Program-made: the position numbers and the translations under genes
Assembly: GCA_022835595.1 (NCBI GenBank)
Contig: BQUP01000008.1
Coordinates: 434,001-498,000, forward strand
Direction: 5' to 3'
DNA length: 64,000 bases
From: Cystobasidium ongulense
Lineage: Eukaryota; Basidiomycota; Cystobasidiomycetes; Cystobasidiales; Cystobasidiaceae
Shown: positions 20,882-22,284 of the stretch, piece by piece
Position numbering within the stretch: the stretch's first letter is position 1
Layout of the letters: the number at the start of each line of letters is the position of its first letter
Notes under the pieces: model-generated
Told to the model about the DNA's origin: nothing
What the model saw: only the letters and a program-made list of their open reading frames with translations
Databases searched by the model: none

Positions 20882-20970
20882 GTCCAAAAAAAATTTCTGT
20901 GCTTGTCAGAAGTGAATGATGAACACAAAAAGAGAGGAAAGTGCCTCGAATCGGGCTTGACCAATGACCT
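20882..20970 (-). repeat. Truncated duplicate of the tRNA-Phe 3' half and flank
   Basis: This 89-bp block repeats 21042-21131 with one single-base gap as the only difference seen. On the minus strand it contains variable loop, T arm, 3' acceptor strand and the downstream T-run of the tRNA-Phe gene, but no D arm or anticodon arm. The missing base lies in the TTC of the T loop, so this copy would not form a normal T arm. It is a broken 3' fragment, not a second functional gene. Confidence 0.8.
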
Positions 20971-21041
20971 GGAGCTGGGCGTCGACGATACAGAGCTTTC
21001 CGACGCTGAAGTCGGTACGGTTTGCCACCCGGACCAAAAAA

Positions 21042-21131
21042 GTCCAAAAAAAATTTCTGTGCTTGTCAGAAGTGAATGATGAACACAAAAAGAGAGGAAA
21101 GTGCCTCGAATCGGGCTTGAACCAATGACCT
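21042..21131 (-). repeat. Parent copy of the 90-bp direct repeat
   Basis: The intact version of the block at 20882-20970, covering the 3' third of the tRNA-Phe gene plus 60 bp of 3' flank that includes runs of T on the minus strand. Both copies begin at the same GTCC followed by an A-run on the plus strand and end at the same AATGACCT, so the duplication has sharp edges. Confidence 0.8.
21087..21091 (-). terminator. Pol III T-run terminator of tRNA-Phe
   Basis: TTTTT on the minus strand, 11 bases after the discriminator base. A longer T-run follows at about 21046-21053. Both lie in the duplicated 3' flank. Confidence 0.65.
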
Positions 21132-21137
21132 TGCGCT

Positions 21138-21150
21138 GAGCTTATTGGAA
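21138..21150 (-). other. Canonical tRNA-Phe intron, 13 nt
   Basis: Sits one base 3' of the anticodon, between positions 37 and 38, the standard place for introns cut by the tRNA splicing endonuclease. Its removal closes the GAA anticodon loop with a TGCGC/GCGCA stem. Confidence 0.8.
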
Positions 21151-21162
21151 CTTCAGGCGCAC

Positions 21163-21224
21163 CTAATGATGAGATGGTTGTCAGATGATTGAACCGCTTG
21201 TCGAAGCTGATGATTTGAACTCAC
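21163..21224 (-). other. Ectopic 62-nt intron in tRNA-Phe with spliceosomal-type ends
   Basis: Lies between tRNA positions 25 and 26, where nuclear tRNAs are not normally interrupted. It begins GTGAGT (21224-21219), ends ATTAG (21167-21163) and has CTGAC about 20 nt before the 3' end. These are the signals used by the protein-gene introns in this window. The border has a one-base ambiguity because G follows on both sides. Removal restores a continuous D stem, G26 and anticodon stem. How it is removed in the cell is not shown by sequence. Confidence 0.7.
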
Positions 21225-21249
21225 GCTCTCCCAACTGAGCTATCAAGGC

Positions 21250-22152
21250 GGCTTTCTTGGATGAAAGCTCTTTCCTTGTAACGCTATATAAAATTCTAGT
21301 CGCGGCATCGTAAATCCTCTCCGGCAAGAGTCAATCAGGACATGGGATGTGTCATTGTTAGCGTCCACTTCGACCAGAGCGTCTGCAACCGTAGACTGCT
21401 TTCTAACCGGCCACGCGAACAACATAGACATACCTTGGTCTCTAGTGCTCACACATTCCCTTTTCTGCTTTGCGAGAAGTGAAAACTCGATAAGCTTCTT
21501 AGCTCGGGCGGCTTCGCCGCCCAGGAACAAGCTTTTGCCCACAGATTGCATCTATCGCATACACCAAACCCAATCGTCCCAGCCTTCAATACAGGAAATA
21601 ATACATAAGTAGTCTTCTTGTTGCCCACTTGATGGCCGTACAATCAGCAAACCAGCTCGTTCTGATCTTTTGGTCGAGTCCAACCGACCACATTGATTTG
21701 TAACTTCAACTCCATTCACGCGCGATAAGAAAGCAATCCTAGTAGCACCTCAGACTTCCACGAAACGTCAAGAACATAGGTAACTGCTTTAATGGAAAGC
21801 TTTTTTCTTATTCTCAGTCTTCTTGCTAGTTTGGAGAAGAGTCTGACTCTATCTTCCTTTTCATTTGGGTGCAACGACGCATTCGGACCTGCAATCTCTC
21901 CTGTGTGTCTAGCATCCCCATCCATTCTTAGGTATATCTTGACTTCTCTGCATCATGTACCTGGCTATTGCCTGACCTGAGTGCCTATGATGTCGCTTGT
22001 CCAAAAGGCATTTTCTTCGGCACGTGACCAATGTAGATCTGCAACGGCGTGATACGAAGCCACGAGTCTCTCGGAACCGTAATCTTTATACATGCGAATG
22101 CGAGGACACCATAAGAAAGGTTCATGACTGACCTGGTACACACGGGATCGTG
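21250..22152. other. Intergenic region, about 0.9 kb
   Basis: Contains several short open frames on both strands, none with recognisable content. A small GC hairpin (GGCGGCTTCGCCGCC, 21508-21522) is visible. No further tRNA or other RNA gene recognised. Confidence 0.45.
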
Positions 22153-22284
22153 ACGATACTAGATGGAAGTACTCTCTCTGACGTGAATCATGGCTAGCTC
22201 GAACCCTGATAGAATATCGCAATTCTATCAGGGTTCGAGCTAGCCATGATTCACGTCAGAGAGAGTACTTCCATCTAGTATCGT
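22153..22284. repeat. Perfect 63-bp inverted repeat with 6-nt spacer
   Basis: The left arm 22153-22215 and right arm 22222-22284 are exact reverse complements. The spacer ATCGCA is at 22216-22221. Pairing stops abruptly on both outer sides. The arms carry GGCTAGCTCGAACC and its complement, and no open frame fits. Such a palindrome can be a hairpin transcript, a fold-back insertion or an assembly artefact. Confidence 0.9.

Follow-up and report, generated by a model that had tools for sequence, protein, structure and literature searches.

The stretch of DNA analysed here (64,000 nt of contig 8 of the Cystobasidium ongulense assembly, hereafter the window) contains a tRNA-Phe(GAA) gene with two introns on the minus strand (21102..21249). 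The gene is the lone Rfam tRNA match in the window (RF00005, 21249-21102, minus strand, 36 bits against a gathering score of 29). ARAGORN reports no tRNA gene in the window, and names tRNA-Phe(gaa) with a 13-nt intron only once a 62-nt GT-AG segment is deleted. In the direction of the gene, exon 1 (21225..21249) supplies tRNA positions 1-25, comprising the acceptor 5' strand and the D arm. The GT-AG segment follows at 25/26 (21163..21224), an intron of apparently spliceosomal type that reads GTGAGT...TTAG and has a branch-site motif, CTGAC (21180..21184), whose A lies 18 nt from the intron 3' end. Exon 2 (21151..21162) supplies positions 26-37 with the anticodon GAA, as read from the sequence and by ARAGORN on the spliced form. 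The ordinary 13-nt tRNA intron at 37/38 (21138..21150; i(38,13) by ARAGORN on the spliced form) separates it from exon 3 (21102..21137), which supplies positions 38-73 with the T arm and the acceptor 3' strand. The 37/38 position of endonuclease-type introns is thus occupied by the 13-nt intron only, the 62-nt insert being at 25/26.

The signals of a functional tRNA gene (cloverleaf, boxes A and B, T-run terminator) are all present, also on the minus strand. Box A, TAGCTCAGTTGG (21231..21242), is a complete match to TRGYNNARYNGG, which we take to be the consensus and used as the yardstick throughout. Box B, GGTTCAAGCCC, was found by pattern search at 21113..21123 (C8:455113-455123), and a terminator, TTTTT (21087..21091), starts 10 nt beyond the tRNA 3' end. 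A TATA-like sequence, TTTTATATA (21285..21293), about 36-44 nt upstream of the gene, may serve as a promoter element. A preliminary description of this DNA, which named no strand, had proposed the two-segment anatomy (13 nt at 37/38 and 62 nt of GT-AG type at 25/26), which proves correct throughout; the promoter boxes and terminator that it named are in the sequence, and neither intron includes TTTT, as it had stated.

The borders that it gave for the 62-nt segment need one qualification. When deletions of 40-94 nt were scored for the cloverleaf without regard to GT-AG, the top score was tied among four, all of 62 nt and offset by 0-3 bases, and one of the four is GT-AG. The border can slide by 0-3 bases because a GTG repeat is present at both ends, so that from this gene alone it is ambiguous by 3 bases; the GT-AG register was chosen by splice-site logic and from the other genes described below. 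Chance is excluded as the source of the insert because like inserts recur in 20 tRNA genes of the genome.

A repeat comparison identified an incomplete tandem copy on the minus strand at 20882..20980, which reproduces the 3' end of tRNA-Phe with the flank downstream of it and is not a gene. It consists of a 79-nt repeat at 100% identity and an adjoining 21-nt repeat at 86%, and matches the tRNA 3' end at 90% in a genome search with the mature tRNA. A similar partial copy lies downstream of the tRNA-Tyr gene (L109). Both copies begin near the variable loop and extend past the tRNA 3' end into the flank, and are perhaps due to an element targeting tRNA 3' ends. The window also has a perfect 63-nt inverted repeat with a 6-nt loop (22153-22284), and the neighbouring genes include those for MUG190-like and Zds_C proteins, presumably of fungal families.

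Interrupted tRNA genes of the genome

The genome (19.77 Mb in 19 contigs) was searched with patterns for the D arm, box B, and box B with a T run, and with Rfam. Among 45 tRNA genes recognised, 21 are interrupted and 24 uninterrupted; nearly half are thus interrupted, as counted within the loci brought up by the searches and not over the whole genome. The 24 are what is left of 28 ARAGORN predictions after removal of an organelle-like sequence (L018) and three misread interrupted genes. Excluded from both counts are a degenerate elongator-Met (L113), a degenerate Gln-CTG (L134), two Ser-like repeats (L069 and L070) and a truncated Ala-AGC (L031). One more gene is Asp-like, with a sequence not legible in full.

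GT-AG introns, 25 in all (21 unique), are present in 20 of the 21 interrupted genes, which represent 17 anticodons. They are 57-67 nt long (median 62) and occupy 14 positions, the offsets having been converted by hand to standard tRNA numbering. A single intron is found at 7/8 in Ala-TGC, 10/11 in Arg-CCT, 14/15 in Leu-TAG and Ser-AGA, 20/21 in both copies of Gly-GCC, 22/23 in elongator Met, 24/25 in Cys-GCA, 25/26 in Phe-GAA, 26/27 in Gln-TTG and Asn-GTT, 28/29 in Lys-TTT, 32/33 in Thr-TGT, and 56/57 in both copies of Val-AAC. Five genes have two each: Trp-CCA (13/14 and 25/26), Tyr-GTA (14/15 and 28/29), Leu-AAG (19/20 and 24/25) and both copies of Ile-AAT (28/29 and 46/47). The layout of Leu-AAG requires a 7-nt exon. 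In both Ile-AAT genes (L112 and L121), the anticodon loop region TACTAATA, flanked by the two introns, resembles a branch site. An ordinary 37/38 intron of about 11-24 nt is additionally present in 11 of the 20 genes. A 37/38 intron of another gene, Pro-CGG (L019), includes TTTTT, which is expected to hinder Pol III. The remaining interrupted gene, Arg-TCT (L055), has a comparable insert whose 5' end is not GT: it starts GAAAGT, contains a branch-like CTAAC and ends CTGCAG, with no fitting GT. Possible readings are an intron with GA-AG ends, use of another GT together with a longer D loop, or damage to the gene. The preliminary description had seen a single case and suggested scanning the other tRNA genes for GT-AG inserts away from 37/38; since 19 more genes carry them, the inserts are a genome-wide trait.

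Genes for His-GTG, Pro-AGG, Ser-GCT and Leu-TAA, and a sound gene for Ser-TGA, were not found by the box-B-based searches, in which 100 of 126 AGTTCRANYCT-type box-B matches were among the matches listed and most were left unread. Introns in the T arm, as in Val-AAC, escape box-B patterns, so these five isotypes may have such introns and may have been overlooked. Rfam at gathering scores gave no match at 12 unspliced loci (11 tRNA loci and the U6 locus described below).

The GT-AG borders of the 25 introns were first placed by eye, with GT-AG in mind. They were then checked, in the 16 single-insert genes only, by a scan blind to GT-AG, in which deletions of 40-94 nt were rated by cloverleaf pairing and by conserved bases. 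The GT-AG deletion is among the top scorers in 13 of the 16. It is the unique optimum in Lys-TTT and one of 2-4 tied optima in Phe, Cys, Gln, Arg-CCT, Asn, Thr and both Val genes. In both Gly genes, Met and Ser, where the insert is in or beside the D loop, 17-22 optima are tied. GT-AG falls short of the best score by 1 point in Leu-TAG, 2 in Ala-TGC and 10 in Arg-TCT. By manual reading, the T6-T67 mismatch of Ala-TGC is shared by Ala-CGC, a paralogue without such an intron. In Lys-UUU, the border is fixed by comparison with intron-free Lys-CUU genes, from which the spliced form differs only at the anticodon base and one T-stem pair. Recovery of the tRNA by program is also conditional on splicing. 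ARAGORN reads none of the 21 interrupted genes correctly when unspliced, three being misread. With the GT-AG introns taken out, each of the 20 genes is called as a tRNA; the isotype is the expected one in 16, and the four that are misnamed all have 37/38 introns.

The U6 snRNA gene of the same genome (L126; C1:2353058-2353147 and upstream, minus strand) is split by three GT-AG introns, each of which begins GTTAG, and one of its exons, AGAAG, is 5 nt long. It scores 37.3 bits with Rfam, below the gathering score of 44, and its exons were identified with what we take to be the U6 sequence.

Intron signals, transcription and gene copies

For comparison with mRNA introns, 48 introns were predicted ab initio in the window and the loci; 47 were kept after one turned out to belong to U6. 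These are unverified, include at least one overlapping pair, and were picked by branch motif, YAG and a length of 48-84 nt, so that the set serves for comparison of TTTT and 5' ends, less for length, and not for branch sites. With that limit on length, the mRNA-type introns are 48-79 nt (median 61) and the tRNA GT-AG introns 57-67 nt (median 62). In the CRM1 gene of the window, ten candidate junctions delimit introns of 58-73 nt, with one more junction unsolved; they were selected by use of what we take to be CRM1 proteins. Among the 21 unique tRNA introns, CTRAY is present in 15 (3.5 expected from shuffles) and CT[AGT]AY in 20 (7.1 expected), and the top-ranked branch motif is 17-23 nt from the intron end in 17 and elsewhere in four. 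The 5' ends of the mRNA-type introns are mostly GTRAG(T/C), a form (GTRAG) seen in 9 of the 21 unique tRNA introns. GTTAG begins 10 of the 21 and all three U6 introns vs none of the 47 mRNA-type introns (p = 1e-6 for tRNA).

Several other kinds of intron and one other factor were considered. U12-type introns were rejected, as none of the 25 begins with ATATCCTT or GTATCCTT, presumed to be the 5' ends of that type. Group I and II introns were rejected since 57-67 nt is too short for a catalytic core, and Rfam at gathering scores has no match to them in the window. An introner family is not claimed: the highest similarity score for two introns from different genes is 18, which is marginal against the maxima of 200 shuffles (95th percentile 16, top 22). 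A special U1 for GTTAG sites was also dropped, because the single good U1 match (C6:859842-860019; 56.5 bits, below the gathering score of 69.5) has an ordinary 5' end, ATACTTACCTG.

The inserts might instead be unusual tRNA introns, cut by the tRNA splicing endonuclease at non-standard sites, for which Cyanidioschyzon and nucleomorphs offer examples. The many 37/38 introns of this genome imply that the enzyme is present, and red algae have ectopic introns that are cut at bulge-helix-bulge motifs, according to passages of a review (PMC4090602). When that motif was defined as two 3-nt bulges around a 4-bp helix at the intron borders, allowing one base of slack gave a full bulge-helix-bulge-like match for 2 of the 25 inserts, and the 4-bp central helix for 4 of 21 unique inserts. 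Without slack the full motif is found at none of the 25 (2.3% at random places), a test of low power, for in the control the 37/38 introns show the full motif with slack in only 1 of 10, and the central helix alone in 5 of 10. What argues against the endonuclease is that the inserts have GT-AG ends, a branch motif and the length of mRNA introns, none of which the enzyme requires; we consider cutting at non-standard sites unlikely. Recurrent branch motifs, the narrow length range and the lack of TTTT in the inserts give further support to the spliceosomal reading of the preliminary description, and we infer that the GT-AG inserts of the tRNA genes are removed by the spliceosome.

The transcripts in question could in principle be made by Pol II, or by both polymerases, with the tRNA processed from a Pol II precursor handled by the spliceosome. 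Spliceosomal splicing is normally coupled to Pol II, as is generally known, and in five genes the intron makes for a poorer box A, with one mismatch in Leu-UAG, Tyr and Ser, two in Arg-CCT and three in Trp. The features of the loci are otherwise those that Pol III predicts. TTTT stops Pol III, and it is absent from all 25 tRNA introns, as against 8.3 expected from base shuffles or 4.8 from dinucleotide shuffles; the contrast between none of 21 unique tRNA introns and 10 of 47 mRNA-type introns is significant (Fisher p = 0.025). Downstream of every interrupted gene (21 of 21) there is a T run of at least 4 nt at a distance of 0-33 nt; it is within 13 nt in 18 of them and at 28-33 nt in both Gly genes and Ala. 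U6 of the same genome has the same type of intron. Pol II transcription therefore appears very improbable, and spliceosomal splicing of a Pol III transcript, as proposed in the preliminary description for tRNA-Phe alone, is supported by the recurrence of such inserts in 19 other tRNA genes and U6.

Box A as it stands in genomic DNA matches the consensus completely in 10 of 18 distinct genes; the Ala-TGC intron precedes it and is outside the scanned stretch. The three introns at 14/15 interrupt box A, and their own first bases replace RYNGG with one mismatch. In Val, the intron splits box B, yet starts GTGAGTTCRAATC, providing the box-B core. How promoters would be used in genes with a weakened box A or a split box B is not obvious. 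A box-B-like GGTTCRA is present in 3 of 21 tRNA introns (window 21163-21224 in Phe; L056; L128 and L132), vs 0.03 expected by shuffling and none in the 47 mRNA-type introns. In the Phe intron it is 47 nt from box A. The motif was noticed post hoc and is only a lead.

A whole-genome DNA search with 17 mature tRNAs as queries, including Phe, Lys-UUU, Cys, Tyr, Trp, Asn, Ile and elongator Met, gave 42 matches at E values up to 10, and all 24 candidates were scored. No intron-free copy of any of the 17 was found in the assembly. Every interrupted gene was found in pieces, together with the partial 3' copies beside Phe and Tyr, while Lys, Ala and Ser paralogues were matched at lower identity or partially. 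The eight tRNAs named are indispensable, so that without intron-free copies their introns must be removed in vivo, unless the assembly misses other copies. Between the two copies of the Gly, Ile and Val genes, 0 of 218 aligned exon positions differ, as against 22 of 253 in the introns; the exons are under selection. With intact exons, no intron-free copies and exons conserved between duplicates, the genes were rejected as tRNA pseudogenes. The preliminary description had also allowed for a dead tRNA-Phe gene, which is contradicted by the search with mature tRNA-Phe, as it recovers only the gene and its own partial 3' tandem copy. That all of these are dead genes with insertions, their working copies being elsewhere or in unassembled sequence, is hardly credible in view of the exons, the absent copies, the tRNA readings after splicing and the T runs, even though the genome searches score the best candidates only and skip very common words, and 5.8S rRNA has no match in the genome search, so that some repeats, and with them hidden gene copies, may be missing from the assembly.

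Proposed splicing route and related systems

The reading we favour, with a probability of roughly 0.9, takes tRNA-Phe as a working gene, the sole one found for this tRNA, whose 62-nt segment is a spliceosomal intron of U2 type, and has the spliceosome act before the endonuclease. Transcription by Pol III, removal by the spliceosome and the order of the steps are what we infer from sequence features. With boxes A and B as promoter, TFIIIC and Pol III would produce a transcript that ends at the T run, and Pol III would not be halted within the 62-nt intron as it lacks TTTT. In the nucleus, the transcript would next lose its GT-AG intron to the spliceosome through the usual lariat pathway. The tRNA splicing endonuclease, which gauges its cuts from the mature body, would then recognise the restored cloverleaf and cut out the 13-nt intron at 37/38, after which the ends would be ligated. 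The GT-AG intron most likely leaves first because the eukaryotic endonuclease is considered, in passages of the same review, to measure from the tRNA body (PMC4090602). The same route would apply to at least 20 tRNA genes, which cover 17 anticodons.

A tentative extension, to which we give less than an even chance, is that translation in this fungus depends on the spliceosome for its tRNAs, at least 17 of which, like U6, would be made solely from Pol III precursors that carry spliceosomal introns. Such introns could then constitute a distinct class, marked by a GUUAG 5' site, the lack of runs of four U and, in some, a box B of the intron itself; their recognition would differ somewhat from that of mRNA introns, and reverse splicing might have spread them to many positions within tRNAs.

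We know of no other tRNA intron of this kind, and the proposed mechanism is a variant of spliceosomal introns in Pol III RNAs. Among the matches listed in the open-licence literature there was no report of spliceosomal introns in tRNA genes, the known parallels being U6 and U3. Introns of mRNA type are present in U6 of fungi other than Schizosaccharomyces pombe as well, and there, as in the tRNA case, a small structured RNA made by Pol III is interrupted by introns of GT-AG, spliceosomal type. In fission yeast, an mRNA-type intron is spliced out of the U6 precursor, which provides a precedent for a Pol III RNA, and that intron is thought, in the passages concerned, to derive from reverse splicing near the catalytic bases of a spliceosome component (PMC10484740). 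According to a title cited there, Schizosaccharomyces U6 introns contain a box-B match (PMC10484740), which resembles the box-B-like motif in three of the tRNA introns. Unlike U6, which is part of the spliceosome, tRNAs have no such role, and they already have a splicing system of their own. Fungal U3 snoRNA genes, too, encode a small structured RNA and have ordinary spliceosomal introns, widespread in Basidiomycota, and the passages describing them do not name tRNA (PMC5832005).

Ordinary nuclear tRNA introns at 37/38, which are handled by the Sen endonuclease and Trl1, share transcripts with the GT-AG introns in the 11 genes that have both. The GT-AG introns differ from them in their other positions, their length of 57-67 nt, their ends and their branch motif. 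Similar in distribution are the ectopic introns of Cyanidioschyzon merolae and nucleomorphs, which likewise are found at many positions, with more than one in some tRNA genes. They differ from the mRNA-type introns described here, being 3-24 nt in Guillardia nucleomorphs and cut at bulge-helix-bulge motifs in C. merolae, as given in passages of the 2014 review (PMC4090602). In those passages, non-standard eukaryotic tRNA introns are otherwise rare and supposed to mark pseudogenes, save in nucleomorphs and one red alga (PMC4090602).

If the favoured reading is right, production of essential tRNAs would depend on the spliceosome, hitherto thought dispensable for tRNA splicing, and two unrelated splicing systems would act on one molecule. 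Splicing would work with a 7-nt exon and without the cap and tail of Pol II RNA, and intron gain would no longer be limited to mRNA plus a small number of other RNAs. A direct test of how splicing is coupled to Pol II would become possible, and the spliceosome would control the supply of tRNA. Other fungal genomes may harbour the trait unnoticed, given that none of the 21 interrupted genes was reported correctly by ARAGORN, which either missed or misread them.
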